DNA of 64,000 nucleotides from Warburgia ugandensis (Eukaryota > Streptophyta > Magnoliopsida > Canellales > Canellaceae), in the NCBI GenBank assembly GCA_035236585.1, contig CP141126.1, positions 71,215,414 to 71,279,413 on the forward strand. Direction: 5' to 3'. Shown piece by piece: positions 2,836-43,473 of the stretch. The position numbers and the translations under genes are program-made. The notes beneath the pieces were generated by a model, which saw only the letters and a list, made by a program, of their open reading frames with translations, had not been told where the DNA came from and ran no database searches. The stretch's first letter is position 1. The number at the start of each line of letters is the position of its first letter.

Positions 2836-3167
2836 AAGGAAAGGTGTCATAGACTTTGTATGGCACATTCCAGCTGTTCATGGAGTCCGCTACAAAATGC
2901 TAGATGTTTCTAGCTCCTAAAGCCGAATACGCTTGTGGCTCCAGAAATAAACGAACTTTGTTATTTTGTAGAGTAAGGTATTTTGGTCGTTGAATCCCGG
3001 CAAGGAAAGGTGTCATAGACTTTGTATGGCACATTCCAGCTGTTTATGGAGTCCGCTACAAAATGCTAGATGTTTCTAGCTCCCAAAGCCGAATACGCTT
3101 GTGGCTCCAGAAATAAACGAACTTTGTTATTTTGTAGAGTAAGGTATTTTGGTCCTTGAATCCCGGC
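2836..3167. repeat. Tandem direct duplication, two 166-bp units
   Basis: Units 2836-3001 and 3002-3167 are directly adjacent and differ at only three positions by eye (C/T in CTGTTCATGG, T/C in GCTCCTAAAG, G/C in GGTCGTTG). The block lies 140-470 bp upstream of the minus-strand gene at 2223-2696, in the position of its promoter and 5' leader. The near identity implies a recent event compared with the decayed elements around it. Confidence 0.9.
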
Positions 3168-3356
3168 AGCGCACACGGTCAAGAGCGGATGAAAAATTCA
3201 GCACACTTTTCTTATGTAGGATGAAACTTTATTTTTCGATTTAAGTTATCCATTATGTTCGACGTAACTTAGATAGGCTACAGATTAAATTGGTGTCTTA
3301 GAATAATTTCAACCGCATTTTTTCGAGTAAAGAAATAAAGATCATCTACTTTTATT

Positions 3357-8088: not shown

Positions 8089-9894
8089 AGCATTTTGGTA
8101 GGCCTAAGCAAAGAATGCAAAAACCATTTTATTAAAAAATTATCATTTTCATAAGTAATCATAGTTGCATTTAGCCTATGCAATGAGCCCTTGAACCCTT
8201 AGGTTACCCTTAGTAGATGAGTTAAGCATTGTGAGGGTTTGCATTGAATTTACCTACAAAATTTAAAAAGAGTTCAATTCCTAAGTTTATCTCAGAGAAT
8301 TCTCATGTATTAGTCTTCAATAACTTTAGTAAGCTAATAAGAATAGATGAAATGCTCACAACCCTACTCATATGCTAAAGATATTCATTTAAACTTGTAT
8401 CATAGATTGTAGTGTGTGTACAATTAACATATAAATAACCATTGACTTCTAAGTAGATTATTATTCATAATTTCATCAAAAATACGTTTTGGCCTCAAAT
8501 CTCATAGTTTTAATGTACATGTAGGAATAAAGCTCTCAAAAAAAGGGTCAAAAGTGTCTCTCAATTATATGAGTAGAGTTTTGAAATTCTAATTCCTCAC
8601 ACATATTTGAAAGAAGAAAGGTACTAAGGAATTATTCTAATCCTTTTAGAAAATCATGTTATTACCAATAGAAATTCAAGCAATATCACACCCTCATTTC
8701 TACCTATTTACTTCCCATCAAGGCCATATATAGACTAGGATCAATAGGTCTTTATCTATGATGAAACATAGGCTAAGGATAAGGTGATGAAAAGATCTTA
8801 ACTAGGATAAAACATAGGCTTAGGACAAGTTTAGAAAAGAAGGGTATAAGGATTTCAAAGGTTCAAAATTGTATAGAGGTCTTCAATGAATGTCTGTTAG
8901 GACAACTTTTTCTTTTGGGGTTGTACTTAAAGTGAATTTCTATTTCATATTTTTGTCTTTCTCTTTCAATTTCAATTTTTTCACTTTTTTTTATGGAAGA
9001 AAGACTACTCATTTTTCTCACCTCTTTAACTTTTTGTCCTTTTTTTTTTGAACTTTTACTAACTGTACCCATTTTGACAATGGGTAATGGATATTTGTTT
9101 TACAAGCTTGTTTTGGGTTATGGTAAATGGGGTTAAGAAAGAAAAGGCTTGATAATAGGCTCAAAAGAGCTAACTAATGGTATGATATACTAGGTAGGCT
9201 TTATATCTCTAGGCTTAGCAAGGATGACATATATCTTTTCCTAGGTTTTCTAAAGCCTATTAGATTTAATAAATTTTTTGGAATTAAAGCTATTACTCCT
9301 ATTTATTCTTGATGTTTAACTAAAACAAGGATAACAAGATCACACTAAGTTATGTATGTTGAAGAAACTGTAAAATTACTTATAACGCTCTAAAAGAAGG
9401 TAGTCTCTAAATCTCACTTAGTTATAGGTCTCCACTGATTTTCTTCAGGGTCTCTAAGTCATACCTCTCTATTAGTCTTGATTATGTGCTATGTGTAAAT
9501 AGTTTATGAGAATTAACTTTCATAAAATGCTTCAACACATGAATGATACACAAAACTAATCATATGCCTTCCCATTAAGATATGAAAATAGTGGAATTAC
9601 TAAATTATGAACATCTTATTCTCATCATAGTAAGGGACTCTACCTTAAAAGTTTTTTTTTTTTTTTTTTCAAAAGAAAACAAACTTAAGAAAATTCAAAA
9701 TCCTTATATGCATCTACACCCCCAACCTGAATGAAACATTGTCCCCAATGTTTGAAAACATAGGATCCTATATGAAAATTTAGTGATGTAGACTTTAAAA
9801 CCCTGGGTTGCCTCCCAGTAAGCACTAAGTTTAATGTCTTCAGTTGGACTTTAACAATTGAATTTACAATGTGTAAGATAGGCATTCAGCGGAT
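8089..9894 (-). mobile_element. 3' internal non-coding region of the Athila/Tat-like element
   Basis: Two landmarks typical of the 3' internal part of this element class are visible on the minus strand. One is CTTACTGGGAGGCAACCCAG (plus about 9803-9822). The other is ACATTGGGGACAATGTTTCA followed by GGTTGGGGGTG (plus about 9722-9754). A block at about 8160-8250 is also found, in the opposite orientation, at 63482-63560. No reverse transcriptase, RNase H or integrase sequence is present between the protease remnant and these landmarks, so pol is deleted or was never carried. Confidence 0.55.
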
Positions 9895-10190
9895 CAAAGA
9901 TAGATAATGGTAGTAGAACTTGTGGAATTAAATCTTCAATTATGTTGCAAGAATCATCAAGATCTAATTATTGATGGTTGACATTGAGCTCAACTTTCAT
10001 ATTGCCAAAGGATAATTATAATACACCATTTCTACAATTTATGATTGCATTGGACATCGCTAAGAATGGACGTTCAAGAATCACTGAGATTTGACTGTTG
10101 GGGTCTACTACAGGTTGGGTATCTAGGACAATGAAATCGACAAGGAAATAAAATTGGTCCACCTATATTAATACATCATCAACCATACCA
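9895..10190 (-). pseudogene. C-terminal part of a retrotransposon protease (retropepsin)
   Basis: Conceptual translation on the minus strand gives GMVDDVLI, then VDQFYFLVDFIVLDTQPVVD, then NSQISVILERPFLAMSNAII. This is the standard sequence following the retropepsin active site in Athila/Tat Gag-Pro proteins. Stops interrupt it. The preceding half (ending in RSIKIP) lies at 14575-14796, and the 4.2-kb LTR at 10192-14415 separates the two halves. The reading frame then runs into the non-coding 3' region without an RT domain. Confidence 0.8.
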
Positions 10191-12046
10191 CTATGACACT
10201 TTGGGTTTTTCATGAAATTTTTTCGTGTTTATTTCTAAAGATAGCACCTCTAAATTTTAAAATACAAAAAAACAATGGAAAATTTTTGTTTGAAATTCAT
10301 TTTCCCAAAAGCCCGGATGTCACCTTTATGTTGACACTATACATACATATATATATATATATCGTTTTCTAGAAGATAGAAATTCATTTCTTAAAATAGG
10401 ACCCATCCAATGGTTCACTATACAGCCCCTATAACATTATATTAAATGTCCAATATCACAATTCAAATGACTAACCACACAATACAAAATCTTTAATAAA
10501 ATGTGTACCTAACTGCAGGAGTATAGTTGCTAGATTCCTCTTCTTGTGTATATCTTCTCCTATCTATTTGTATCTAAGATATTGTAAACATAAAACATTT
10601 ACAACATCTCAGCAAGCTATGCTTGGTAAGGGAGTTTAAGAAACATGCTAAATATTAAGATACATTAATTATTCCATAGTAATTAGAGTATTTATTTTCA
10701 TAGCAATTTTATTGAATGGGATTTACTATATGTTTCACATTTCAATAATCCATTTATAAACCACATATCTACATATTTCATAATCATTAACAATCCATTG
10801 ATGAATCAATTATTAGCATGTTTCATAATTGTTGATATCTACATGTTTCATAATTATAAGTAATCCATTGATTTATCAAACATCTTTAATTATTATTTGT
10901 TATCTAAATAAATTAATCCAATTCCATGAACCATACTCTCCATAACAGTTCTACTCATTCATACACCCATATAAAACTTATATGGAACTGCGCCCGCAAT
11001 CATATACATTTAGCATATGTACACATATATGGAAATTGTTAAAAGACATACAAAATTATGAATATAATTAGTAAGTCTCCAAATCTATATCCCCAGACTA
11101 TACTGGGTTTCAAAATCATACCCCTCCTCATGTGAGGTTCATAATCATTCAGCCTTTGTTGGTATATTAGTATAATCCTCATGCCCTTCACTATACAGGG
11201 TCCACAATCTTTCAGACACTGCTAGGAAAACAACATAAGGCATATCATCATGCCATATCATATAAGCATCTCATAATTCCATCATATAAGCACTATAGTG
11301 CATCAAATATAAGGACTACTATGCCGCATTCTAAATATGTATAGCACACCCAGATAACTACATAATAATCCATTGATACCAATTGTGGAAATAACAAAAT
11401 CTATGTTTGCATGAGGGAACCATGGTTGTTATAGTGGTAGCCTTCCCATGATTGTCCCACCCAATGTTTAGCCTCTCATTGGGCATGGTATCCATCATAT
11501 AATAAATTTCAGAGAGCGGGTGGCCAAACCCTACAACTCTCCTAACATAGCATCCCCAGGCCTATGCCTGTCTAAAACAAAACTCTCAGGCCACCATGCC
11601 TGGATGTAAAATAATCATAATAGTAGGTAATTCACCTGTCCATTTATTTCATAACAAGAATAACATCCTCACATATTTGGTGATAACCCACCAAGAATGT
11701 ATCCTACAAACCTAGACTCATACATCATCAATACTGACATGGTACCCATGTACCATAAACATAATTTCACAATTCACATATATGATGTACAAGTCATAAG
11801 CTTTAGTTATAACATGCAATTCATTTAATTACATTATTTTCATTACTACAATTTAAAGCATGTCGAATATAAATCATACCATTTGAGTTTCATAACATCT
11901 GTAAGCAGAAATAAGATCATGTTTAGAACATGCATCTTATTATTTAGACATGATGTCTAAAATTTCCACCTACTTCGTATGACGTGCTTATTCGATTCCA
12001 CTAGCTTTAATCGCCCTCTTCTTCATGACCCACCATGCACTTCAAT

Positions 12047-12235
12047 ATTATTCAAGTAATTCAATTGAGTTAGAATGCACACAACTACTATAGCAACAAA
12101 AGAAATAAAACATATTTTAAGATAAGCAACTTGCCTTCTTCCCTCTATTGCAAGCTTTATGGCAATACCAATAGCTTTTATGCTGATAACCATTAGTGAA
12201 TTCATCAAAGAACAGATGCCCAAGTAAACTAATAT
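12047..12235 (-). pseudogene. NIPA-like: Captured fragment of a NIPA-type magnesium transporter gene
   Basis: 63 codons without a stop read ILVYLGICSLMNSLMVISIK, then AIGIAIKLAI and so on to CILTQLNYLNN. Plant NIPA (DUF803) magnesium transporters carry a stretch of the form YLGICSLxGSLxVMSVKAxG then GIAxKLT..G and QLNYLN. The hydrophobic spacing matches two membrane segments of that family. Only this piece is present, with no start codon or rest of the transporter. It follows the ATP synthase fragment by about 115 bp on the same strand. Function as a transporter is excluded. Confidence 0.7.
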
Positions 12236-12351
12236 GTTTATGAAGATTTCATAGACATCAGTGGAGGATTCTCACAATGCATGATATTTTCTATTTCCAA
12301 GCATGGATAGATTTTCATTGGGAAACTAATTCTAGCATGAATGTCATTGCC

Positions 12352-12591
12352 ATCTAGATGGGCAAAGGTGGTTGAAGGTGTTGGATCTGTCAGGTCATCA
12401 GCAGGAACATAAATAGCCTAGACTGAGGTAATAGAACCCTTCTTTGTGGTGCTAATATGTTCTTGCAAGCCTTCAAGATTAGTCACCAAAGTTCGTTGGT
12501 AACCAACAGTAGATGGAATATGACCAAGCAAAGTAGACACTTTAGAATTTGCTTGGGTGAAGCAGAAAATGTTGTCAATGAATAACATGAG
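12352..12591 (-). pseudogene. ATP2-like: Captured fragment of mitochondrial ATP synthase beta subunit
   Basis: 80 codons read [19 protein letters not shown], then [30 protein letters not shown], a stop, then AIYVPADDLTDPTPSTTFAH and LD. This is the catalytic-domain stretch of F1-ATPase beta ([40 protein letters not shown]). The FTQAN and [10 protein letters not shown] residues match the mitochondrial protein rather than plastid AtpB (FVQAG, TSTKEGSITS). One in-frame TAG replaces the conserved Gln before AIYVP. Sequence after residue 80 diverges. The fragment is fused in frame to the RAPTOR fragment upstream. Confidence 0.9.
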
Positions 12592-12750
12592 CTGAGGAAG
12601 GCAGACTTCAACAGCCACATCCCAGGCATCCCACATATGGTGCTAATAAGTTGGAGGCAACCTTGGAAATGAAACTGGAGAATAATTAGTAGCTCGCATA
12701 ATCTGCTAAGCAAGTAAGAAATTTTGGAACAAACTGGCAACCAATAAACC
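12592..12750 (-). pseudogene. RAPTOR1-like: Captured fragment of RAPTOR (TOR kinase partner)
   Basis: 53 codons read GLLVASLFQNFLLA, stop, QIMRATNYSPVSFPRLPPTY, stop, [17 protein letters not shown]. Plant RAPTOR proteins contain the corresponding stretch LLVASLFRNFLLAERIMR ... [25 protein letters not shown]. Both stops sit at Glu or Gln codons (GAG or CAG to TAG). The last codon (CAG) joins directly and in frame to the ATP synthase fragment, so the junction is inside what are coding exons in both donor genes. RAPTOR recruits substrates to the TOR kinase. This 53-residue relic cannot do so. Confidence 0.85.
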
Positions 12751-12759
12751 CTTTGGTTT

Positions 12760-13286
12760 ACAACCCAATGTACGTCTAAGTCCTTATAACAGATCTCATA
12801 AGAGTGGCACCTTCTCCTAACAAAACCTTCTTGTTTGTATTGTGCCCTTGGCCACAACACTTTGCCATAAGCAATCCCCAAGTCCACTCAACCATTCATG
12901 CCCAAACTCTTCAATTCCTAGTCAAATAATGGGGAAACTGATGACCCATTCATAGATTCTAACAAAGAGTCTCTTCTGTTCCTTGAAAACCCATTTAACT
13001 TAAACCCCATTCTGTTTGATTCCGGAGACCCAGAATCCAAACCACTACAACTGGGATTTAAAGCCTTCCTAGTGCTCTTAACAAAAGGCTCTAAGCTACT
13101 GAGAGAGGGCTCTTTCCTTCCTTTCATTCTCTTCGTGACTTGTCCCAAACTATTCCGTTCATCATTCAAGAAGGAACCACATTTCCTCTTCAAACCAACA
13201 TCTTCTCCCCCTTAGAAGTTCTAGATTTTTTAAGGGGATTTCTTAGATTTATCAAGAGTATGAGATTTTTCTTCACAATCTTCCAT
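12760..13286 (-). pseudogene. Captured coding-like fragment of unidentified gene
   Basis: From an ATG at 13286 a single minus-strand frame reads MEDCEEKSHTLDKSKKSP, three stops within eight codons, then GLKRKCGSFLNDERNSLGQV, KGRKEPSLSSLEPFVKSTRK and so on to NGSSVSPLFD. It then runs with isolated stops to about 12760. The Lys/Arg/Ser-rich, low-hydrophobic character is that of a nuclear protein. The pattern KKS...KRK...RKEPSLSSLEP loosely resembles the N-terminus of plant Enhancer-of-polycomb-like proteins, but this is weak. It lies immediately before the RAPTOR fragment in the same orientation. Confidence 0.4.
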
Positions 13287-13700
13287 CCACAAACCCCCTA
13301 ACAATAGAAGAAAAATGAAAAAACCATATTTTTAACTTCCATCATACATTTTGCACATATTGAAACACTAATTTCATATCTGAGATCGATATTTCCACAC
13401 CACTTTCCAAAAAGACCCAAAATTGGAAATTAGAACATATGTTAATCGATCAACGCCATTTTTATGAAAGTAATAGCAAGATCTAAGCTGCTCATGGAAG
13501 AAGAATGAAATCAATCATTAAAAAACCAGAAAAATGCATACCTATATTTGAATCATTCGAAAATAACGCTATTTGCCATCATTGTTGCTGACGAACTCCA
13601 TCTTTTTTGGCAACCCAAAAACCCCCGCCTAGCTCTTCTTGTTCGGCGTGACTGGGTTTTACCCACGCATAGATCTCCCTACTCCTTTCTTCTTCTCTTC

Positions 13701-13749
13701 CTCTTCTTCTTCTTCTTCTTCTTCTTCTTCTTCTTCTTCTTCTTCTTCT
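13701..13749. repeat. (CTT)n microsatellite
   Basis: About 16 units of TTC/CTT. It yields poly-Arg, poly-Lys or poly-Phe ORFs on the different frames, which are artefacts. Confidence 0.95.
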
Positions 13750-14415
13750 CCATGTCAGGTTTTTCCTTGATTCTGTTGGGTTCATGGCTGCCGGGTTTCT
13801 TCGTTTGAGAACAAATCATACGATCTATTTTTGGAAAGCCACTAGTGGGTGGCACTATCAAATATGGCCCCTCCTTTTATTATTTTCTTTTATATTCTTC
13901 TTTTCCTTTAATTAATTCATGTTTGTTGTTAATCATGATGTTTTTTCTCATCATTCCTCCCAACATGCTTTCAAACATAAGGCATGATTCCTACACATGA
14001 TGTTTTACTAACATCTAATTATCATCAGACCCATATTTCTGCTAGTGGGGCTGACTGGTACAATTACCAAATTACCCTTCGTAAGAAAATTAGCGATTAT
14101 ACTTCCGAACTCCGTTTTTAGCAATCTTAGTGTCGTTGAATTCGTATCAATGAGTAGAATCCAAATTTTATAATTTCAATTTTATGTTCTTAGTTTTTTC
14201 TTTATCTTTTAATTATCCTATTGCCTCTAACTTCGAAGCCCCATAACTTCCTCATTCGAACTCTATTTTCAACATTCTTTAGCTCTTTGGATTCCATTTT
14301 CTGAGTACTATCTAATGGTGTGAGTTTTAGTGCCAAATTATTATCCTATCAAAAGATATACTTCTTGCAAGCTCATAACCTGATCATGGAATAGTAAAAT
14401 TTTAGGGTTGTTACA

Positions 14416-14574
14416 ATCTTACCTCAGAGAAATTTGTCCTCAAAATTTTTAGGGTCATTACATTCTTCCTTCCGTAGAGAATTTCATCTTTGAAATCATT
14501 TTTCATGATATCTTTCCAACAACTCTAATAATATTCTCATCTCATTGTAAATTTAAAGTCATATCATTACTTCA
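14416..14574 (-). mobile_element. 3' internal end of the gypsy-type element, with duplicated polypurine/LTR junction
   Basis: On the minus strand two similar modules lie in a row. The first has GAAATTCTCTACGGAAGGAA then GAATGTAATGACCCTAAAAA. The second has GAGGACAAATTTCTCTGAGG then TAAGATTGTAACAACCCTAA. Each looks like a purine tract followed by an LTR start of the TGTAA.GACCC type. The LTR could begin at either. The second was chosen as the boundary because it corresponds to the solo LTR end at 53778. Confidence 0.5.
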
Positions 14575-15331
14575 AGGAATCTTAATTGATCTATAGGCTA
14601 ATTGTAATGTGGCGTTGGTTGGCTTAAGCTCACCAAGCCCTAGTTGCTCATAGAAAGAATATGGAAACAGATTAACACTATCCCCTAAGTCAAGTAATGC
14701 CGTATTTATTACATGATCTCCTATAATGCAAGAAATTGTAGGATATTCTGGATCTCTAAATTTTGGTGAGGTCTTGTGTTGAATTAAAGAGCTCACCTAC
14801 TCAGTGAGGAAGGTTGTCTTTTGTACATTCAACATTCGCTTTGTAGTTCAAAGCTCTTTAAAAAATTTGGCATAAGAAGGAATATCTTTTATAGCATTAA
14901 GTAATGGAAAATTGATTTGTACATGTTTAAACACTTCCATTATCCCATTAAAATTTGTTCCTTTCTTAGCCTTGTTGAGTAATTGAGGGAAGGGAGCTTT
15001 AGGAACATAGGGTGCCTCCACTATAGGCTTAGAATGAGTAGGAGATGTTTGTCTAATCTCTTTCTAATGTGTTTTGGTTGCCTCTTTCTCCTCTACAGTT
15101 TCCTTAGCCTGACCTACTTTGTTATCAATCTGACCATCGCTCCTAAGCGTGGTTATAGACTTAGCATGCTCATGAGGCTTAAGGTTTTCAGAACTTAACC
15201 CTATCTCACATTGGCCCTCAGGGTTGGGGATGGGTTGACTAGAGAACTAACCCTTTCCTTTATTATGTAGTTCAACTCACAATTGGCTTACCTACATCTC
15301 TAACTTGGCTATGTCTTGAGAGTTGACATTG
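14575..15331 (-). pseudogene. Gag C-terminus and N-terminal half of retropepsin (Athila/Tat-like)
   Basis: Minus-strand translation, with stops and frame slips, gives [12 protein letters not shown], then VEAPYVPKAPFPQLL, INFPLLNAIKDIPSYAKFF, then SSLIQHKTSPKFRDPEYPTI. The protease follows: ALLDLGDSVNLFPYSFYEQL then GLGELKPTNATLQLAYRSIK. In intact relatives the catalytic triad reads LDLGAS, so the Asp is retained and the Ala is changed to Asp. The sequence breaks off after RSIKIP at about 14575 and resumes at 10190, beyond the inserted LTR. Confidence 0.85.
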
Positions 15332-15645
15332 GCTCATATTGGCGATGTTATTGTTGCTGTAATAAAAGAAGCAGTACCCAATATACCTCTCGAAAGATCA
15401 GAAGTGGTCAGAGCTGTAATTGTACATACATGTAAAGAACTCAAACATGACAATGGTATGATAATGGGATATGATGACAATGCAACGGTTGTCATTGATC
15501 AAGAAGGAAATCCAAAAGGAACTCGAGTTTTTGGCGCGATCGCGCGAGAATTGAGATAGTTGATTTTCACTAAAATAGTTTCATTAGCTCCTGAGGTAGT
15601 ATAAATACTAGTAGATGAAATCATTCTATTATAGGGTATCTGAAT
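15332..15645 (+). pseudogene. rpl14: Nuclear plastid DNA insertion (NUPT): rpl14 fragment and 3' flank
   Basis: From about 15332 the plus strand encodes [20 protein letters not shown], then [20 protein letters not shown] and on to [17 protein letters not shown]. This is plastid ribosomal protein L14 without its first roughly 35 residues. A TAG at 15557 replaces the Gln after ELR. Beyond it the frame continues LIFTKIVSLAPEVV to a TAA at 15602, which is the normal L14 C-terminus. Other changes (VRT to VHT, KRD to KHD, IIRYDD to IMGYDD) show nuclear decay. Sequence after the stop still looks like plastid spacer to about 15645. It lies inside the decayed gag gene. Confidence 0.93.
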
Positions 15646-16863
15646 TTTGCAACTAGTGTAAGGCCTATTTAATTTCATCATTATCTTTTGTAATTTTTTC
15701 AAGCATGGTATGGATGTTTTCCTCTAAAGATGGTTTCTTTTGTTGTTGAGGTTGTTAAAAGCCAGGTGACTGTTGGGGGATTGTAATTCTAAGAGAAAAG
15801 TTTTGGACAGAGAAATTTATAGATAGTCCCCCTTGGTGGTTATTCTTTGACGAAGACAAATTGGGATGCCTAGCCCATCTAAGGTTGTAGGTCTCAAAAT
15901 ATGGATTTTCGCTAGGTTGGTGATATGCATTCAATTCATTCGCTTTGTCAATAAGATAGTTGTTCAGCACTCAATTTGATGGACAAGATGAGGTGAAATG
16001 GGCTGGGCTAGAACATATAGCACAAACCTCATGTGGAGGTTTTTGGGACAAAGTAGCAGCCATGAAAGTTTCAAATATTATTTCAAGTTTGTCCATTCTT
16101 CCACCTAATTTTTCAACTACAGAGTCAAGTTTATGGGATAGATCAATATACACTCTTATCTCATGGAGACTTACTTTCTTAGTGGGCTGGTTGGTTCTTT
16201 CTCTCCTATTTGAATAATCTTATTACTAAGAATTATTAGCCACTATTTGAAAGAACTCCCATGCCTCACTTTCATCCTCTAGCATGAGGGTCCCTCCACT
16301 CACTACATCTACCATTTGTCTATTTTTAGGCATCAATGCCTTGTAAAAGTATTGAACCTGCTACCATTTCTCAAATCCATGATGAGGGTATTTTTGTAGC
16401 AAATCATTCCACCATTCCCAATATTCCTAATATTGGTCAACATCCCTCTATTTGAAATTGATAATTTCATGATGCAGGTCATTTGTTTCATGAACAGGGA
16501 AGAACTTATTCATAAACTTCTTAGACAATTGGTCCCATATATGGAACCTACTTCCAAGGAATTAAGCCATGACTTGGCTTTGTCCTTAAGTGATAACCAG
16601 AATAGCCTAAGCCTAATAGAATCATCCAAAAAATTTTGGAGCCTAAATGTGGCACAAATATCAGTGAACTCCTTGATATGTAGGTAGAGGTCTTCTCGAT
16701 TTCGGCCACAAAAAGTAGGGACTAATTAAATGACTCCCAGCTTTAACTCAAACTGGTCAGCATTTGTGGCAGGTAATGTTATGTAGTATGGGGTACTAAG
16801 TTGTAGAGGTGCATAGAAATCTCTAATTGTTTGGTGCTCAATCTTTGTTGCTGGTTTAGCCAT
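15646..16863 (-). pseudogene. Decayed gag gene of Athila/Tat-like retrotransposon
   Basis: From ATG at 16863 the minus strand reads MAKPATKIEHQTIRDFYAPL. After stops it reads LVPTFCGRNREDLYLHIKEF, then LRLFWLSLKDKAKSWLNSLE, WDQLSKKFMNKFFPVHETND, and YPHHGFEKW with VQYFYKAL. This is the retrotransposon Gag capsid-like domain. A CCHC zinc knuckle (CAICSSPAHFTSSC) lies at about 15980-16030, followed by a PSENPYFETYNLRWARHPNL spacer. At least five stops interrupt it. The plastid rpl14 insertion cuts it at about 15645 after LNRPY. Confidence 0.88.
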
Positions 16864-18080
16864 GAGGATAGGAACTAGCTTTCTTTTGCCATGTCGTTTG
16901 ATGCGTCACATCTCTAGGTCTAAAGGTACTAGCTCTGGGTTCTTAGATCAATGCCCTTGCATAAACTTTTCTAATCTAAAATTTTCTAATCTAAATGCTA
17001 ACTCTAACACTATGTGATGCATAAACAAAAGCCATAGTCAAATAATCCTTAGGCTAATAAGCAGCAATATGTTGACTTTCTTAAATTTGTGAGGGGACAA
17101 TGCTTTTAAATTATCCTAATCTAGTGCTCCTCCTCTCTTTTAGATTTGACTATTGCTTACTAGTTAGGTTTTGTGCAAGGTGGTTAATACAATCCTCATA
17201 TAAGGAGGTGTTTAGACCTCAACAAACATCAATAGAAGGCATGGGAAAATCACTTGGATTTTAAGACACCCACTATAACTATGGTAAGTAGAAGCCACTG
17301 GAGTGATAATAGATTATGTCAATGTAAGATGGTCCTACGAGCATGTGATGGCCCTATAGGTCTCTTCTAATTAATTTTAGATTAATTTGAAAGGTAGGGT
17401 TGCATGCTTGTGGTGATTATCCTAGTTGGGCCAAGGATTGGTGATGAAATCCACCCTTGATCTTATGGGGTCGGGTGCCCTTACTAATTAATTTTCACAC
17501 TCCATGGCAATTTGATCAACATATAAATCACCTTAAAGATTAAACGTGCCCTAAGAATGCAATTGAAAGCAATAAACTAATGCAAAATCCTAAAAATGCA
17601 ACAATTATCAAAGATGCTTTTTATATGCAATTATACTACTAACCAATGAAAAATTAATCTAAATGCAAACCCTAATCTATGAAATAAAAAGACTGAGGGT
17701 TACTTACAATGGGGTTTCTAATGAAGATTAAGTGTGGGCCACCTTATCCCACACTTGCCCTGTATTATACAACCATTTTAAAATTCAAATGGAAACTGCA
17801 AATTACAAAGGAGCCTCATTAAAAGATTCACTCAAAGATCCACTTGCCAGGAAAGTGGGAAAATTTCTATTTTGATGAAGATACATTTGCCAATTTTCTC
17901 CACTTTCCAATTTCTTGAAAAAGAAAATTAGAAATATGTACCAAATTTAGGACACAGGGTGATTATGCACGAAGAAATTTGAAAAATGTACCTAAAAATG
18001 TCTAAAATACTAAAAGTATTTAATTCACAATTTTTTTTTTGAATATTTTAAATTAAATTTTATGAAAACTCTATTGCGAA
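16864..18080 (-). mobile_element. 5' leader of the Athila/Tat-like element
   Basis: This 1.2-kb AT-rich region lies between the primer-binding site and the gag ATG and has no coding signal. Long leaders are usual in this lineage. Confidence 0.55.
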
Positions 18081-23010: not shown

Positions 23011-23106
23011 CACTACTACACAGGGGGCTTTTAAAGTCAAGTAAAACTAATAAAAGAAGTCCCTTAATAAACGACTTCTATTGAGCCAACTTGAAAAGTT
23101 GATAAC
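23011..23106 (+). mobile_element. Possible CACTA (En/Spm) terminus
   Basis: CACTACTACACAGGGGGCTT begins a segment with inverted short motifs (AGAAGTCCCTTAATA / ACGACTTCT), as in ends of plant CACTA elements. It abuts the truncated chromovirus LTR at 23107. A CACTA-type transposase remnant lies on the far side of the chromovirus, which fits one CACTA element split by the later insertion. This is inference. Confidence 0.4.
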
Positions 23107-23783
23107 TAGTACGCCCTAGGGACTGTCCCTGGTTCTTTTGTGGCTCCCTAGAGCCCCGTTTTGCATGGTTTTTCATGCAAAAATTTGGGGAACTCATCCT
23201 AAGACTAAGGGGGAGATGGGTTTGGAGGGGTTTTTGGCATACCTAGTTCGTGGCCGGGTTTTTTCCATGTTTTCTCCTCTTGCCTACCTCTCCATGATGT
23301 GTTTTTTCCAAGCTTTTGGGCTGCCATTAGAGGCACCTAGGAGCTCTATTTATAGAGCTCGAAGAGGGTTCTGGAGGGGGTTCTTACCACCACGGAATGG
23401 CAGTGGAGAAACCTCCAGAATGGCGATGGTTTCTCCCCTGCACACCTCTGTTCTAGAACCCTCTAAGAGGTTTGGGAAGAAGAGGGGTGCCCGTATCAAA
23501 ACGGGTCCCTGTTTTTCTCAGGCCAAATCCGTTTTTAATTTAAATTACACTTTTGCCCTTAAACTTCAAAGGGCTATAACTTACTCATTTTAACTCCGAT
23601 TTGAGTGATTTTGGTCTTGTTGGATTCCTATTTCTGAGACGCACCTAAGGTACTAGTCTTAGGACCAACTTTCTGGGTCCATTCAGGGTGAATAGTGAAA
23701 TGACCAAAATACCCTTATCTCCAAAAAGTGAACTTTTCATTACTAACTTGGGATTTCAATGTTACAAAAATGGAGTCATTACA
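23107..23783 (-). mobile_element. Truncated 3' LTR of the chromovirus
   Basis: The sequence matches 30188-30867 closely. It starts (minus) TGTAATGACTCCATTTTTGT at 23783 and stops abruptly at 23107, about 1.85 kb short of the 5' LTR length. The TATA box (minus CTATAAATAG, plus about 23349-23358) is retained. The 151-codon plus-strand ORF at 23138-23593 recurs in the other LTR copies as antisense sequence and is not a gene. Confidence 0.88.
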
Positions 23784-23796
23784 TTCTTACCCCCTT
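23784..23796 (-). other. Polypurine tract of the chromovirus
   Basis: Minus-strand AAGGGGGTAAGAA directly precedes the LTR start TGTAATG. Confidence 0.75.
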
Positions 23797-23818
23797 AGGG
23801 GAATTTTCCCCCCAAAAG

Positions 23819-25450
23819 TCAAAAGATCTTGGGGTACTTTTCTCGCATTTCTGACTCCGGTTCCCAAGTCTCTCCTTCCATGTGCGCATTTCTCCACAAA
23901 ACTTTGACTAAGTGTATGTCCTTGTTCTACAACTTCTTACTCTTACAATCCAGAATCTCAACTGGTCTCGTCTCTAGCTTGAGATCCTCCATCAACTCTA
24001 TGGGTACCTGGTTGATGACATGAGCAGCGTCAGGCATGTACCTCCTTAGTATAGATATATGGAATACGTTATGCACTTCAGATAGCTGAGGGGGTAGTGC
24101 AATCCTGTAGGCCACTTTTCCCACTTTCTCCAAGATTTCAAAAGGTCCTATGTAACGCGGACTAAGCTTGCCTTTGATACCGAACCGCATAATTCCTTTA
24201 GTGGGAGATATCTTCAGGAAAACGTGCTCTCCTATGTCGAATTCTAATGGTCTCCTCCTTTGATTAGCATAGCCCTTTTGCCAGCTTTGAGCTGTGAGGA
24301 GTCATCTCCTTATGAGTTTGACCTTCTCGGCGCATTGCTCCACCAGCTTGGACTGGAGCACCCTAGACTCTCCAACTTCAATCCAATTGGTGGGTGATTG
24401 ACAGGGTCTCTCATAGAGCACCTCGTATGGAGCCATGCCAATGCTTGACTGAAAGCTGTTGTTGTACGCGAACTCTACTAGCGGTAGGTTTTCATCCCAG
24501 CTTTGCTTCCAATCGAGGGCACAGGTTCGCAACATATCTTCGACTATCTAGATCATGCGCTCTAATTGTCCATCGGTCTATGGATGGAAGGCTATGCTAA
24601 AGTTCAAGGAAGATCCTAAGGATTTTTGGACTGACTTCCAGAGTTGTGAAGTGAAGCGGCAATCCCTATCTGAAGTGATACTAAGGGGTATGCCATGTAA
24701 AATCACTATCTCTTTGATGTATAGCTGAGATAGGCTGTTAGTGGATTGGGTATGGCGTATAGGAAGGAAATGGGCTATCTTAGTCAATCTATCAACAATT
24801 ACCCAGATCATGTCATGACCCTTAAAGGTCTTGGGTAACCCTACAATGAAGTCCATGGTAATATGGTCCCATTTCCATTTGGGCAACTCAAGGGGTTGTA
24901 ACTATCCCACAGGTCTTTGATGTTTAGCCTTTACTTGTTGACATGTTAGACACTTTGCCACAAATTCCCCTATGTCTCTTTTCATACCATCCCACCAATA
25001 TTGTCTCTTTAAGTCTTGATCCATCTTAGTTCCTCCTGGGTGTATAGTATACTTAGACCGATGATCCTCTTTTAAGATTTCTTGTCTTAATTCTTCATTA
25101 GTCGATACCACTAATCTTCCTTGCATGTAAACGCTACCATCTTCCCCTTTAGTAAACCCTGGTTTTCCTATGAAAGCTTGTATATCTAGATCTCCTTTCT
25201 GTTCTTGCTTAACCTTTTCATTAACAGCCGACTTTATCGTTAGTCCTGCCATAATGATCTTGCTCTTACTTATGTCTGGTTTCCACGTTATTACTTCTTG
25301 TAATAGCTTCCATCTCTTAGTCAATAAACTTGCACACATCCCTTGGGTTTTTCTACTTAATGCATCAGCTACCACATTAGCTTTTCCAGGGTGATAATGA
25401 ATGGAGAAGTTATAGTCTTTTAAGTATTCCATCCATCTTCTTTGTCGCAT
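23819..25450 (-). pseudogene. Chromovirus integrase and chromodomain (with end of RNase H)
   Basis: The start reads MRQRRWMEYLKDYNFSIHYH then PGKANVVADALSRK, the RNase H end. The HHCC zinc finger follows (H..YTIHPGG ... CLTC). The DDE core has Asp in TMDFIVGLP and in TSDRDCRFTS, and Glu in TDGQLERM. After VEFAYNNSFQSSIGMAPYEV come RYIGPFEIL with VAYRIALPP and VHNVFHISILRRY. A C-terminal chromodomain (VKVLWRNAHMEGETWEPESE then MREKYPKIF) ends at a TGA at 23819-23821. Stops occur after RPVG (replacing a codon at about 24899), after FHP, after ERMI and after LIRR. The catalytic residues themselves are preserved. Confidence 0.92.
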
Positions 25451-26560
25451 GTTTAAGTCTTGTTGGGAAAAGATATATTTAAGACTCTTATGATCTGTAA
25501 AAACTTCAAACTTTTCCCCATATAAATAATGTCTCCAAATTCACAAGGGAAAGACTATGGCCGCTAATTCCAAGTCATGGGTGGGGTAATTGACTTCATG
25601 CTTCTTGAGTTGCCGAGAAGCATAAGCAATTACCTTCCCATGTTGCATAAGTACGCAGCCTAGTCCTTGTTGTGAGGCATCGCTGTATATCTCAAATTTG
25701 CCACTTCCTGAAGGTAAGGTAAGAACAGGTGCTGTAGTTAACTTTCTCTTTAGTTCTTGGAATCTTTCCTCACATTTATCAGTCCATTCAAATCTTGTGT
25801 CTTTCCTGGTCAGCTTAGTTAGAGGTAAAGCAATTCGTGAAAAACACTCGATGAATCTCCTGTAATATTCGGCAAGTCCTAAGAAGCTTCTTATTTCTGT
25901 GACTGTCTTAGGTCTTTCCCATTTCTGTACTGATTCAACCTTAGCGGGGTCGACTGCTATGCTATCTTGAGAAATAATGTGTCCTAAGAAATTAACCTTT
26001 TCCAGCCAAAACTCACACTTACTGAATTTTGCATATAACTTGTGTGCTCGTAGGGTGCTTAATGTTATCTTTAGATGTTCCTTATGGTCTTTAGGAGTTT
26101 CTGAATATATTAAGATATCATCCACAAACACTATGATGAATTTATCTAAGTACTCCTTTTACACCCTATTCATGAGGTCCATAAACGCGGCTGGAGCATT
26201 AGTTAAACCAAAGGACATCACTCTGAATTCATAATGACCATATCGAGTCCTGAAGGCTGTCTTGGGGATATCTTCTTCTCTAACTCGAAGTTGATGGTAC
26301 CCAGATTGTAGATCAATTTTAGAAAAGACTCTGGCTGACTGAAGTTGATAAAAAAGATCATCAATTCGGGGAAGGGGATACTTATTCTTATTGGTGACCC
26401 TATTTAGCATTCGATAGTCTACGCACAATCTCATGGAGCCATCCTTTTTCTTAACAAAAAGGACTGGAGCTCCCCACAGAGATACGCTAGGTTGTATGAC
26501 CCCTTTGTCAAGTAGTTCCTGTAACTGGGTCTTCAATTCTTTTAGTTCTGCAGGAGCCAT
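25451..26560 (-). pseudogene. Chromovirus reverse transcriptase and RNase H
   Basis: The RT starts [20 protein letters not shown] and contains [20 protein letters not shown] and YHQLRV. The catalytic FVDDILIYSE motif comes after a TAG that breaks the frame following LMNRV (26159-26161). RNase H follows (KFEIYSDASQQGLGCVLMQ, DLELAAIVF, FTDHKSLKY) with another stop before IWRHYLYG. Upstream, a TGA at about 26558 separates it from the protease, where relatives have Arg (CGA), so a CpG decay event is likely. Confidence 0.93.
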
Positions 26561-27289
26561 TCAGTAAGGAGCTTTGGAAATGGGGGAAGTACCAGGTATA
26601 AGGTGAATGATAAACTCAATTTCTCTTGGCAGGGGGAGACCTGGTAAATCCTCAGGGAATACGTTAGGAAATTGTCGAACTACCTCGACATCCTCTAGCT
26701 TTAGTTGGGGACTCTTGACAGATTCAATCTTGGCCAAGAAGAAGGGGCATCCCTGAGCAATGTGCTTAACTGCTTTCATGGCAGAAATAACACATGCTCT
26801 AGAATAATCCTTTCTTCCTTGGAGGGTGAAAGTGATACGTTTATGGCGGCAATCAACAAAGGCTTGATGAAAGGCTAGCCAGTCCATATCTAGGATGATG
26901 TCAAAGTCATTCATATCTAAGTGAATAAGATTGGCATGTAGCAAATGATCTTTGCCCAAAACGGGGACATCTTGGAGATAAGAATAGGTGGGAAGTGCCT
27001 GCCCTACAGGAGTCATAACTTCTAGAGTGAAGTCCAGGTCCTGTGGTATAATGTCCACGGTTGATGCAAACTCCCGGGATATGAAAGAATGAGTGGAGCC
27101 TGTAACGAATAGAACTTTAGTAGGTGTATCATAGATAGAAAGAATACCTTCCACTACTGCATTTGAAGCCTGAGCTTGACTAGAAGTGAGGGCAAAGACA
27201 CGTCCTTGACTCCTTGGAACCTGATCTTCTTTATGCTCTTCAACTTTCCTTTTAGGACAATTACTAGTAAAATGTCCTAATTCTCCCAA
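26561..27289 (-). pseudogene. Chromovirus protease with second zinc knuckle
   Basis: The frame begins with the end of a CCHC knuckle (GELGHFTSNCPKRK); its first cysteine pair is damaged (CYSWEN). The retropepsin region reads TKVLFVTGSTHSFIS, where active enzymes have an Asp before (S/T)G, so the catalytic Asp is replaced by Val. The linker to RT carries VRQFPNVFPEDLPGLPLPRE. Confidence 0.88.
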
Positions 27290-28196
27290 CTATAGCAAGC
27301 GATGTTGAAAGTGGGACATGGTTTGCCTGAATGATTCCTGTTACACCTAGGGCATGTCTTCTAGTCTGGCCTTTTTCCTTTGTTTTCAAATGACTTCTTG
27401 AAAGGTGGCCTGGGTCCAGATGACTGAAATGGTCTCTTTCCTTTATTTCTCATGGTGTTGATGTTCTTAGTTTCCTTCATCGCTTGATTCCTTTGATAAT
27501 CTTTTTCGTATAGGGAGGCCATCTCTACGGCTTTGGCTGCGGTGGAAGGTTGGAAACCTAGAACTCTATTCCTGAGTTCTGGGTTGAGCCCATCTACAAA
27601 TATTTCTACCGCATCTCCCTCATCAGCACAAGCACGTGGTGCAAATCTTTGGAGGCTGATGAATCTATTTTCGTACTGTTGGATAGTCATGTTTCCTTAT
27701 TCTAAGTCCATAAATTCCTTTTCTTTCTATTTTCTTACATGTTTAGGATAATATTTGTCATTAAAGACCTTTTTAAACTCTTCCCATCCTATTGTTTCTC
27801 GCTGGTCAAAATAAGTCCTTTCCGCTGTTTCCCACCAAAAGGTAGCCTCTCCCCTAAACACAAATGTGGCCATGGGTACCTTTCTTTCTTCAGCTATGTT
27901 CATGGCTTTAAATATCTTTTCAATATCAATTAACCATTTTTCAGCTGTAGATGCTTCATCTTCTCCTGTGAATGAGGGAACTAATTTCTGAAACCTTTCT
28001 AACTAAACCTCAGTCCTATCTATTACTTTATCAGGGGAAGTATCTCAGGTGGTAGGGTTTGTCTTTGACTACTCATGTATTGTCCCATATGCTGTAAAAA
28101 TTGCTGGAATAATTCAGCCATCCCATTGCCCAACCCAATCGAGTCCACTGGTGGGACTTCAGGTCTTGGAACATTGCTTCCTTTCTTTCTAGGCAT
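27290..28196 (-). pseudogene. Chromovirus gag
   Basis: From ATG at 28196 (MPRKKGSNVPRPEVPPVDSI), after a frame slip near the TAATAG stops, the gag domain reads KLVPSFTGEDEASTAEKWL, then KIFKAMNIAEERKVPMATFV, GEATFWWETAERTYFDQRET and NDKYYPKHVR. It continues MTIQQYENRFISLQRFAPR and FVDGLNPELRNRV. A first zinc knuckle (CPRCNRNHSGKPC) follows. Several stops are present. Confidence 0.9.
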
Positions 28197-28323
28197 CTGT
28201 AAATCATAAGGTAATTCACAAGACCTTAGTATGTGTTATCCTATTACCCCTTACTCTTTCATGGATGAAACTTGATTATAAGTTATTCTCCTCATAACTG
28301 GGCTGTGAGTAACATCAAACCAC

Positions 28324-28336
28324 GCTCTGATACCAA
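28324..28336 (-). other. Primer-binding site (initiator tRNA-Met type)
   Basis: Minus strand TTGGTATCAGAGC follows the LTR end directly. This is the common plant primer-binding site complementary to the 3' end of initiator tRNA-Met. Confidence 0.9.
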
Positions 28337-28337
28337 C

Positions 28338-30867
28338 TGTGACGACTCGGGTTTTTTTATGATGCAAATTTAATAGAAAGGTGAGATCTCTTGTTTAAGA
28401 AATATAAAATGCATGAAATTCTTTTGGTTTTGAAAAGCAATCTTTCGTATAAAACCCCGAGTGTCAAAATACATTTTCAAATCATATAGCCATAGCATAG
28501 TTTTAAATTGACTCTATTCCCAAGAAAGTGTTAGTCACAGCCTCAGCTACAGAGAGTAATTACAATTAAGTATCATTCACTAAAAGATAAGGTAGGGGTT
28601 TACTTACTGGCACTTAGTTTGGACGTTCTCTATCACGGGTCTGTCGCTGTATATCCTGCCCTTAAGTGTTTACTTTGTGTCTAAAAAATGTTGAGGATTG
28701 GGTGAGTATATACTATACTCAGTAGGAGTCCATCATTACTAGTTTTACAATGCATGCTATGTTTAAAATTATATGCTCTTTAAAACATGTGCATGTTTGA
28801 ACACTCATGTTCAATATCGATATTAAAAACCATTGTCGAATTGGAATACTGACGACTTAAAGAATCGCATAATCCAAATCGAAAGTATCATATATATCAT
28901 AAACATAATGATATGCATAAGATGCTCAACTGAATCCAACTCATGGATATGTGGTATAGTCGACCATCCTCATATCATGCCATATGAAATGCAAGTAAAT
29001 CCTCAAAAACATAGGGCCCACTATGCCCACAATCTCCTCGCCATGTGGTCCCCGGGTACTTGGGGACACTAGGTCATAGCCTCCACGGGGCATATGACAC
29101 CTCGACCTAGTGCCGTGACACCAGTGGTAACCCCCTGTACCACATGCAGTAGACGTAGGGACATGCCTTTTTTTTTGCATGGTACCCTTTCCACCTAATA
29201 GTGGTAAAGGCTAAGAGGCCACCCCAGACCTCTCGGCATAGTACCCACGAGCTTACTAGCCCAAATCATATACGATCAATCAAGCAAAAACTTCTTTTTC
29301 AAAACCTATCCTCTTTGGGTACCTCACAACTGCCTACCCAGCATCTTTTGGGCACTCTAGCGTCTTTTGGTAACCCTCAAGGACATGCAACTTTTCAAAA
29401 CTCAATAACCACAAATCATGCAATTTATGCAATTGTTTGCAAAACATGTCTATGCATAATGTATTTATCATATGCATGCTGAATTCATTTAAAAAATTAA
29501 GTCATGCTAAACAAGTCATATAACTTATACTTAAAACATGCATTCTCAAAACAATCATGGGCCCTTTTTAAAAGTCTAGTAGCGATAGAGCACCTACCTG
29601 GTTTGGTCATGCTTACCCCCTTGTCCTCGTACACTCTTGCTCATAGTTTAGAGGAACAAGGTTAGCTTGGCCTATTTCTATAGGTTTTAGAATGGTTGAT
29701 CTCACTACTTAGGCATTAAGGGTTCATTCCCATGCCATGGGTCTCCTAAGGTCCTAACTGGGCCTTGGTATCATCAGGTTTACAAAGGTTTAGTGCCCCG
29801 CGCCACTACCATAGTTTAAGGGTCATACCCACCTTAGATAGGGCCTTGATTAGGTATTTTATGGTCTAGGTGTGTCCGCGTCGTTGATACAGACACAACG
29901 CCTTTCGTGGTGCCTCAATCGGAGCCCTAGAACTCAAGTTATGGGCATTTTACTCTCAAGTGTACATATAAGGCCCATACGAGGTGGAAGCCCGGGATGC
30001 TAAAGCGTCTGCATCAGCGGCGTGCGCCCCAGAGGGCACGTCTGCAGACACACCGGGCTTTCGCCCGTCATTCTCAATTGCGGGCACGTCCACGGACGCC
30101 CTCATCGGGTTTCCACAATGCACAAGATGCGTTTTGGTTTGACAGAGACCTGAGCATCCTATGGACGCCCTCGTTCGACCTTGTCAAACTAGTACACCCT
30201 AGGGACTGTCCCTGGTTCTTTTGTGGCTCCCTAGAGCCCCGTTTTGCATGGTTTTTCATGCAAAAATTTGGGGAACTCATCCTAAGACTAAGGGGGAGAT
30301 GGGTTTGGAGGGGTTTTTGGCATACCTAGTTCGTGGCCGGGTTTTTTCAACGTTTTCTCCTCTTGCCTACCTCTCCATGATGTGTTTTTTCCAAGCTTTT
30401 GGGCTGCCATTGGAGGCACCTAGGAGCTCTATTTATAGAGCTTGAAGAGGGTTCTGGAGGGGGTTCTTACCACCACGGAATGGCAGTGGAGAAACCTCCA
30501 GAATGGTGATGGTTTCTCCCCTACACACCTCTGTTCTAGAACCCTCCAGGAGGTTTGGGAAGAAGAGGGGTGCCCGTATCAAAATGGGTCCCTGTTTTTC
30601 TCAGGCCAAATCCGTTTTTAATTTAAATTACACTTTTGCCCTTAAACTTCAAAGGGCCATAACTTGCTCATTTTAACTCCGTTTTGAGTGATTTTGGTCT
30701 TGTTGGATTCCTTTTTCTGAGACGCACCTAAGGGTACTACTCTCAGGGCCAAATTTCTGGGTCCAGTTAGGGTGAATAGTGAAATGACCAAAATACCCTT
30801 ATCTCCAAAAAGTGAACTTTTCATTACTAACTTGGGATTTCAATGTTACAAAAATGGAGTCATTACA
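28338..30867 (-). mobile_element. 5' LTR of the chromovirus (2.53 kb)
   Basis: It runs (minus) from TGTAATGACTCC at 30867 to CGAGTCGTCACA at 28338. A TATA box (CTATAAATAG, plus 30429-30438) lies about 430 bp into the LTR, followed by a CpG-rich segment (about 29990-30180). ORFs within it on either strand (for example 29997-30329) have no relatives beyond other LTR copies. Confidence 0.92.
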
Positions 30868-31319
30868 TGTGCTTTCTTGGGAAAGAATGTCCTAAAAAAT
30901 CTAATTAGAAAGATATGATCATGTCATCTATTTGTATAAAATTTATAGTCAAGTGGAACCACTTACAATGCAAGAAATAGTTTGTGCAGTACTTTCATCT
31001 AAGAACTTGTTGTCAGTATGACCCACCAAAGGAACCATCTTCTAGAGGATGGAGAAATCAATGGGTTTTGTAGTCCCAACTTTCTTTTGCTGTCAAACAA
31101 AGACACTATAGTTAGAGAACAAAATGTATATAACTATAGTAGCATTAATTTGAGAGGGATAAATTATCACAAATGCTTACTTCGCACTCTTCTAAATGAG
31201 CATAGCCCAACCTAGACAGGTGGTGCTGCATATTTGTTTCAGGCACATTTCTATGTCTCACACTCTTTGCCTGTACATTTGTACATATGTAATCAAGTGC
31301 AATAATTAGATTTTATATA
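30868..31319. other. Unassigned DNA right of the chromovirus
   Basis: No recognisable domain; it contains a 65-codon plus-strand ORF at 31018-31215 of unknown worth. It may belong to the CACTA-type element whose transposase remnant follows. Confidence 0.4.
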
Positions 31320-40624: not shown

Positions 40625-43473
40625 TACATGCATATTACCAACTTGAGAAGCTAATAAATGAAGCTCAAAATAACATAAAATGAGATCATACACAATGGGA
40701 GCTTTTGAATATAACAAGTTAGAAAATTGGGGCTTGTAGAAGACTTTTTTCTTACTTTTTCTCTCCTACTCAACCAAAGGAATGGACACCTAAGGTGGAG
40801 CACAAAGTTTCCATGCAAAGGTGGAGATTCTAACTCAATTCCAAGTGGAATACATGAGGAAATAAAGAAGATTAGATGAGAAAAATGAGGAGAAGAAGAG
40901 AGATATGAGAAATCTATGGCTACAACCATCTTACATTTAAAACACTTAAAGGTCAAAATCTACCCTAGATGGATATCCTAAGCAGCCAATGAAGACACAC
41001 AATCAAGTAAGCATGGATGAAGAATAGGCTAAATTGCAATGAAGACCAAAGTGAAAGTCTATTGGTGGAAAGTTATTAAGTGGATTGCCTACCTATTTTC
41101 AGGGAAGAAAAGATCCCTACTTTGAAGGAAAAAAGACATCCCAACTATGTGGAATGCTATTGGGTAGAATAAAAATATGGAAAAACCTAAATTAGATAAG
41201 GAAATCTTTAAGAAATCTAGGCCATCTGCTCTAGCGTAGTCCAATCCAACAATGGAGAGTAAAAAATATTTAAAAGAATATCTATTTGGATAAGATTGCT
41301 CCAACCAAATCTCATCCATTCAAGAAAAGATGATGATAATCTAAGGGCCAAGGATGAAGCACTGAAAAGTTAGAAAAACCTAGACACTTGCCCTTGTTGA
41401 AAGTCAAATCAAGTCTTAAAGTGAAAGAGATATTTACCTTTCCTTAACATCCAATGGTACACATTCAATTCAAATTTCAAAATTCACTTAGTCTCCCATA
41501 GTTTCCATGCCTTGTCCCCTTAACCAATCTCTAAATCCAAACCAAATCCCATCTACCCTAGATTTTCTCCTAACGTTCCTCCTTCCCTCCCTCTTAAGCT
41601 ATATAACCTTTCCTATACTAACAAAACCTTGTTTCCTACCCCAACTCATTGCCAAACTCCATTCCAATTCAAATACCACCATCCACTTGTATTCCATGCT
41701 TCTGACACTCTCTCTCCCCTTCTCATCATCCAAAACATCTCAAACATCCATCCTTTCTTCCTTTAAATACTGACCTTCCATCCCTAGGTCTTCAACTCTT
41801 AAAACTTTGTAAATATGATGTAATGAAGTTGGGAAACATATCCTCTACCTTTTCTTAGAGTTCAAGAGCCAAAACAAGGGAAAATAAAGGGAGGATGATC
41901 ACCTTCTCTGAAGCTTCCTTCATGCATTAATGTTCAAATCCCATGAAGTAACAACAAAGGATGTCAACCCTAGGCAATTTCCCTTCTTTTCCCCTCTTTT
42001 TTACTTTCTTTTGTTTTATTATTCCTTCTACCATCCCCATACTTGCACATATTCTCCCCCATATAGCTTCCTTGTCTTGTTTGCATGCGTACTTCATATT
42101 GCAGTTGCTTGTAGTTTTCTTTTCTTTTTCTAGTTTTGTAATCATAAAGTGTAATCATCTTAGGAAGCATATTAGTTACATGACATATCCCTATCTTGCA
42201 TTCATGTTTGAATTATGTGCACACATAAAAGCATCATAGTTTGTGTGGCCTTTAGATTTGCATGCATCTTTCCCTTCATCTCATTTTCATTAGGCACACA
42301 CACGCACACACATGATCTTGTTGTTTGATTCCCATGCATAGTATTTTCCTTTACATGTTTTACACACCATTCATCTTTGGTGCTTCCACCATAGTTTCAT
42401 ATACTCTAGGAATTGCACACATTAAACCCTCTTCATCTCCTTTCTCATAAACTCACTATTCTCCTTTCCACACTTCTAAAAAGCATACATGCATCCTTTC
42501 TTCACTTTGCATACATGCCTTCACTCTTTTCTCTTGAATGCTTCCATTCCATTCTTACCTTACCACCTTAAGTTCCATGCACCACTATTCTCTATCATAC
42601 ACACACCCTTCACTTCCTTCCATTCAATGCACACACACTTTGCTCTTTCACACACACTCTGAAGCCAAGCTAAAGGCTTCATCTTGAAGGGGAAGATCAC
42701 TTCAATGAATAAGTACCTATCTCCTTACTTCGTCTCCTAAGGTTGGAATTTGGTGATTCCTAATCCATGGCCTACTATCACCCTATTAGTTTTCCTTTTA
42801 TTCTAATTCTTTAAGCATCCTCTATGATTGACCGTAACTTAAGGATGAATTACCTGTAATCCCTTCCTTACCTCTCTCCATAAGGGCTACCCTCTTTTCT
42901 AAGAGTTTCTAGCAAGGAGATTCACAAATTTGTTTTACACTTTCATTCCATACCTTCTTTTACTTTTTTTAGTGGGTGGTGATCTTTTAGAAAAGGTGTT
43001 AGGTTCCTCTTCTCTTGGATGCCTTAACACTTCATTCCTAAGGATTTTTGGATTATATTTTGACTTAAGTGCTGTAGCATATTCGGTTAAGGGGAAGAGA
43101 ACAACTTAGTGGTAACTTTAGTGTATTTTAGGTTGAAGAGAACTTTTTGTCTTTATTTCATTACTTTTCATTAGTCCTTTAATTACATGCTTTTTCCTTA
43201 CTTTACTTGTCCTTGATTGCTAGCCTTATTTCCTTGTTCAATTTCATTTCTTAAATTATGTCTTAGATTCTTACTTTCCTTTCATTGTTAAATGCCTTAG
43301 TTACAATGTTTACTTTTATTTCCCTTAAAATTCCTTAAATTCATTTCCATGGATCGCAAAAGTAACATAACCAAAGTTTTAATTAACTCTATTAATCATA
43401 GAGTCCTCATGGGATCATCTAGTATTTGTCGATTCTATTCTCCAATTGCACTTGTTGTAATAAGTATGACACA
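40625..43473 (+). mobile_element. Athila/Tat-like LTR, 5' copy
   Basis: The sequence runs parallel to 47785-49252 plus 53779-55758: CTTACTTTTTCTCTCCTACT near 40750 and 47913, CCCATATAGCTTCCTTxTCT near 42057 and 53798, and TCATAGAGTCCT near 43397 and 55675. The tail is followed by a primer-binding site, so this copy serves as a 5' LTR. Enclosed ORFs of 70-106 codons are pyrimidine-rich frames without domains. Confidence 0.7.

Follow-up and report, generated by a model that had tools for sequence, protein, structure and literature searches.

A decayed mosaic of host-gene fragments within a long retrotransposon LTR of Warburgia ugandensis

Host sequences in described LTR elements

Two plant LTR elements, described here as they appear in the available portions of the sources cited, are closest to the locus under study. 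GmaRetroS15, a TRIM element of soybean, contains exon-only fragments of three host genes in its internal region (PMC4717578). Segments of three host genes were also transduced into one LTR element of maize, Bs1 (PMC13317346, PMC4717578); these are exons only (PMC4717578), and a review states that the chimeric gene is both transcribed and translated (PMC13317346). The locus was found in a window of 64 kb, by which the whole stretch of W. ugandensis DNA analysed is meant. It resembles GmaRetroS15 and Bs1 in the presence of fragments of three host genes in one LTR element, but the pieces of GmaRetroS15 lie between two LTRs with target site duplications, whereas those of the window lie inside one LTR. 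The captured pieces of Bs1 are likewise said to be located between its LTRs. No such arrangement was found in the window, where the mosaic is enclosed by the homology blocks of a single LTR. In addition, the chimeric gene of Bs1 is expressed, whereas the mosaic is interrupted by stop codons.

Host-like sequence in the LTR itself has a precedent in the TRIM element Cassandra, whose LTRs include a sequence resembling 5S rRNA (PMC4717578, PMC12786077). Both cases represent sequences similar to cellular genes inside an LTR, but in Cassandra this is one RNA gene, as opposed to several protein genes here. In the barley element BARE-2, the LTR was altered by template switching (PMC13317346, PMC1950507), a process to which the foreign LTR sequence is tentatively ascribed here as well; the donor of BARE-2, however, was another retrotransposon and not host genes. 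The template-switch model has been described (PMC1950507), and a 2026 review lists transduction, abnormal template switching and transduplication and cites Bs1 and BARE-2 as cases (PMC13317346). Gene mosaics are often carried by DNA transposons (PMC4290129, PMC6431247). Helitrons, Pack-MULEs and CACTA elements similarly contain multiple host gene pieces side by side, but they have ends of their own, none of which were seen here.

The available portions of the literature searched, mostly papers free of subscription, contained no account of an LTR harbouring several protein genes. An earlier note on this DNA had called the capture of three or more genes in an LTR unusual. This holds for the position inside the LTR, but not for multi-gene capture by LTR elements as such, which is already published, in the accessible source for an internal region (PMC4717578).

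The carrying LTR and its insertion site

The mosaic is located in an LTR of about 4.2 kb on the minus strand (10192-14415), which starts with TGTAACAACCC at 14415 and ends with ...GTGTCATA at about 10192. A related LTR without the mosaic is present at 49253-53778 (minus strand). It is a solo LTR with the 5-bp target duplication ATAAT (plus strand), recognized by eye, and it splits a repeat whose sister copy is intact near 42052-42055 (42051-42055) of the same window. Blocks 10192-10678, 11240-11613 and 14072-14183 of the carrier match 49253-49754, 49973-50349 and 53398-53513, respectively, in the same order, with an identity of 62-74%. The blocks flank the mosaic on either side and add up to about 970 of the 4224 bp of the carrier. 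These are three of the six matches between 9500-15000 and 48500-54500, selected at E 2e-9 or better; the remaining three have E-values of 0.1 or more. The ordered blocks on both sides identify the carrier as an LTR of about 4.2 kb, and together with the position of the pieces downstream of a TATA-like sequence they bear out part of the interpretation in the earlier note, namely host gene pieces of one orientation inside an LTR. No alignment to the related LTR was obtained for the middle of the carrier, 11614-14071 (2.46 kb).

The carrier has a U3 block, 14207-14339, in common with both LTRs of a Ty3-type element at 23104-30868 (minus strand), namely 30622-30755 (70%) and 23539-23671 (68%). The LTRs of this element, of about 0.68 kb, are 97% identical and form the closest pair of LTRs when the window is compared with itself. 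Its gag, protease, RT, RNase H, H2C2 and SH3_Tf2-1 domains exceed the Pfam cut-offs, while Chromo and rve (integrase core) stay under them. The shared U3 indicates that the carrier is the LTR of a Ty3-type, chromovirus-related retrotransposon.

The carrier is not a clean solo LTR. Its start is preceded by an internal-region-like remnant of about 160 bp (14416-14574, minus strand), in which two polypurine-tract-like/LTR-start junctions occur at a spacing of 47 bp (TGTAACAACCC from 14415 and TGTAATGACCC from 14462), as would be expected of the 3' end of an internal region; the TG start is preceded by polypurine-tract-like sequence, as judged by eye against the junction of the young Ty3-type element. 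The carrier is best described as a truncated insertion, consisting of this polypurine-tract-like remnant and the LTR, nested in another retroelement. A protease-like frame of the latter, recognized by eye on the minus strand, is split by the insertion into a first part at 14575-14796 and a continuation at 9971-10189. Neither part gave a Pfam match; a gag match is present on the same strand at 16334-16546 (Retrotrans_gag, E 2.1e-8). By eye, no clear 5-bp target duplication was seen at 10191/14575, and the window yielded no second copy of the carrying LTR. The interrupted retroelement also contains inserted plastid DNA at 15320-15559 (plus strand), between its gag and its protease-like part; 76 residues there match L14 of the chloroplast ribosome (E 1.9e-38, chain 4v61_BM).

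A TATA-like box is present at 13888-13894 (minus strand), 520 nt into the carrier; the corresponding position is 589 nt in the related LTR and 430 nt in the young LTRs, the boxes of the two long LTRs being hand-picked from five pattern matches in the carrier and six in the related LTR, while each young LTR has one match. If the box acts as a promoter, the mosaic at 12047-13286 would be transcribed in sense. Downstream of the box, 13542-13870 (minus strand) is purine-rich and leader-like and includes a run of (GAA)n. The observed/expected ratio of CpG is 0.13 in the chimera versus 0.33 in the entire LTR, and this depletion indicates decay. Taken as sequence, the locus represents a real but decayed mosaic of host gene pieces, situated in a long LTR and probably within the portion that is transcribed.

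Gene fragments of the mosaic

The presence of RAPTOR, ATP synthase beta and NIPA pieces on one strand, with 53, 80 and 63 codons according to the earlier note, was confirmed by Pfam and PDB matches, with 54 codons for RAPTOR. The minus strand carries every piece and is also the strand of the carrying LTR, as had likewise been stated. The RAPTOR fragment (12589-12750) comprises 54 codons with two stops and matches residues 374-427 of PDB chain 5wbi_A, 'Regulatory-associated protein of TOR 1', which we take to be the Arabidopsis RAPTOR chain, without gaps (E 2.5e-21). PDB chains named 'Regulatory-associated protein of mTOR' gave E-values of 1e-20 to 1.3e-20. The matches of RAPTOR and ATP synthase beta were obtained with the minus-strand translation, in which stops were replaced by X.

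The RAPTOR piece is directly followed, with no base in between and in the same frame, by a fragment of mitochondrial-type ATP synthase beta (12349-12588), comprising 80 clear codons and one stop. HMMER aligned 98 codons from 12588 to 12295 without gaps (E 1.7e-37; best PDB chain 6rd4_X, 130.7 bits), but the final 18 are weak, and the count is therefore given as 80, to 12349. The two pieces together contain 134 codons and three stops, with no frameshift. PDB chains named mitochondrial gave scores of up to 127.0 bits and those named chloroplastic 116.4-116.7 bits, so that the assignment to the mitochondrial type is good but not absolute, given that some protist chains named mitochondrial scored 116.6-116.7 bits. 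Chloroplast atpB was considered as the donor and is disfavoured by the lower scores of the chloroplastic chains.

The fragment of the NIPA magnesium transporter (12047-12235) contains 63 codons and no stop; its match to Pfam PF05653 (E 4.3e-16) exceeds the curated cut-off, and PDB NIPA2 was matched with E 1.4e-7. It is separated from ATP synthase beta by 113 bp (12236-12348), in which a weak ATP synthase beta-like tail extends down to 12295. The RAPTOR and ATP synthase beta matches being ungapped and the NIPA piece unbroken, no intron-like break is seen inside the pieces, and each could be a single exon.

The E-values of 2.5e-21, 1.7e-37 and 4.3e-16 rule out chance similarity for the three named genes, and the three host gene pieces are confirmed. 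As an account of the mosaic, chance has a negligible probability, nothing speaking for it in the named genes; it is possible for the candidate fourth fragment considered below. Six-frame Pfam analysis of 10191-14580 revealed ATP synthase and NIPA, as well as Ribo_biogen_C under its cut-off (E 0.16). The RAPTOR piece is missed by Pfam even in the carrier, and the silence of Pfam on further gene pieces is accordingly no proof.

The same analysis of the related LTR (49253-53790) detected neither ATP synthase nor NIPA, the only match being Golvesin_C under its cut-off (E 0.059). The absence of NIPA from this LTR rests on the Pfam analysis, while that of RAPTOR rests on tblastn, since Pfam fails to detect it. 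No second significant copy of RAPTOR, ATP synthase beta or the candidate fourth fragment was found in the window by tblastn. These results agree with the earlier statement that the related LTR is devoid of the pieces. An exact-pattern scan of viral contigs for the RAPTOR/ATP synthase beta junction and for an LTR motif gave zero matches each, which is expected for plant DNA and hardly informative.

The earlier note had also named a nuclear-type coding fragment. A reading frame of 178 codons with five stops, starting with ATG at 13286 (MEDCEEKSH...), is indeed present upstream of RAPTOR at 12752-13286 (minus strand), but a credible match was found in none of Pfam, NCBIfam and PDB; HisG_C (E 0.31) is under its cut-off. 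The 3-base periodicity of windows 12840 to 13320 is 0.38-1.55, inside the background (90% quantile 2.0), while values of up to 2.55-2.82 were obtained for ATP synthase beta and NIPA; periodicity is not decisive for this fragment, because the windows of the true RAPTOR piece are low too (0.8-1.67). The reading frame suggests that a fourth gene piece is perhaps present at 12752-13286.

An intron-like stretch with an AG/GTATGC donor, a TTTTTCTTCTATTGTTAG/G acceptor and 44% T is found at 13298-13541 (minus strand) and stops 11 bp short of the ATG of the candidate fragment. Scored with ad hoc splice-site weights, the acceptor is the best in 11500-14300 and belongs to a score class with 5 members on the minus strand of the 64 kb, and the donor is the third best in 11500-14300, in a score class with 89 members. 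The stretch may be an intron of the fourth gene or LTR sequence. Past NIPA, a donor-like site at 12033 and an acceptor-like site at 11898 were observed on the minus strand. With these sites, the entire mosaic could be read as one exon flanked by two introns.

Possible origins of the mosaic

Capture at the RNA level, in which template switches brought the pieces into the transcribed LTR portion and decay followed, is the best reading, held with slightly less than even confidence. A long chromovirus-related LTR of the Ty3 type would have gained the three identified gene pieces, and probably a 5' portion of a fourth gene, downstream of the TATA box, in the part of the LTR that becomes the 5' end of the RNA. 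During the synthesis of strong-stop DNA, the first short cDNA, reverse transcriptase would have jumped from the element RNA to packaged host transcripts and then back; in a variant of this route, a single jump to an already chimeric transcript, followed by the return, would be sufficient. Template switching would join sense, exonic pieces, and the strong-stop product would be copied into both LTRs, from which any doubling and spread of the pieces might follow.

The sense orientation of all three identified pieces relative to the LTR fits the copying of mRNA. The direct in-frame junction of RAPTOR and ATP synthase beta, the unbroken pieces, the LTR blocks on either side, the upstream TATA-like box and the CpG depletion are also in line with this route, as are the negative searches for DNA-transposon ends described below and the precedents of GmaRetroS15, Bs1 and BARE-2. 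Orientation and frame nevertheless lend this route weak support, as three genes would share one orientation by chance in about 1 of 4 cases (1 in 8 for all sense), and a shared frame has a chance of 1 in 3. The 113 bp between ATP synthase beta and NIPA count against the RNA route, as does the presence in the window of a single copy of the mosaic and of its LTR. A retained intron at 13298-13541 would point to DNA or unspliced RNA as the source and argue against a wholly spliced one.

The same intron-like stretch favours the landing in the LTR of a DNA transposon, a Helitron, Pack-MULE, CACTA or similar element with gene pieces collected beforehand, the ends of which have since decayed; this origin is considered rather unlikely. 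In the portions of the sources available, several gene pieces are common in such elements, with up to nine in maize Helitrons (PMC6431247), captured fragments are reported for 60% of maize Helitrons (PMC4290129), and both exons and introns are carried by Pack-MULEs (PMC4717578). The lack of alignment between 11614-14071 and the related LTR fits an insertion into the LTR equally well. However, no ends of such an element were found. Terminal inverted repeats (at least 12 matches) with an exact target duplication of 2-10 bp were represented by 0 candidates around the mosaic, a strict threshold that also gave 0 in 10 shuffles preserving single-base composition only. A Helitron-type CTRR 3' end with a hairpin was found 0 times in 10000-14600 versus 6 times in the whole window; the hairpin and inverted-repeat rules were set ad hoc, and decayed ends could escape them. 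The direct contact of RAPTOR and ATP synthase beta, with no intervening sequence, also argues against this origin.

Patchwork repair would mean that this LTR, once inserted, suffered a double-strand break that was patched with scraps of host DNA or cDNA, and that it never moved with them. The single known copy and the shortness of the scraps are consistent with repair, as is the plastid rpl14 piece at 15320-15559 in the neighbouring retroelement, which shows that other DNA does enter the locus. The common orientation of the three identified pieces, two of which share a frame, argues weakly against repair, and on balance it seems improbable.

Exonic pieces in sense orientation, the first of them with an ATG, would also be expected of a dead chimeric retrogene, i.e. 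a chimeric transcript inserted in the LTR by LINE-type retroposition. By eye, no poly(A) was seen past the end of NIPA, and 11900-12046 and 13287-13400 share no exact direct repeat longer than 8 bp, a length reached in 95 of 300 shuffles that likewise kept single-base composition only. The intron-like stretch at 13298-13541 speaks against it as well, and such a retrogene is very unlikely.

Under the preferred reading of RNA-level capture, a more far-reaching role can be proposed, namely that of the LTR as an exon-shuffling device. Pieces of multiple host mRNAs would be joined within R/U5 during strong-stop synthesis, placed under the promoter of the element, copied to both LTRs as reverse transcription dictates, and spread as a multi-gene module; this could give rise to chimeric transcripts or to small RNAs directed at RAPTOR, ATP synthase beta and NIPA. 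This proposal is doubtful. The present copy, which is truncated, nested and interrupted by stops, most likely has no current function.

The significance of the locus depends on other copies of the carrying LTR. If these bear the mosaic, it would follow that host mRNAs can enter first-strand reverse transcription and become fixed in an LTR, and core genes, e.g. RAPTOR, might be targeted by small RNAs arising from it. Pieces fixed in this way would double at each transposition and could be transcribed from the LTR promoter. If the copy is single, the locus merely adds to the decayed mosaics of plant regions rich in repeats.

Other repeats of the window include a tandem duplication of about 166 bp at 2836-3168, the units of which are 98% identical, and a stretch of the neighbouring element, 17127-17247, that is 76% similar to 51169-51291 in the middle of the related LTR.
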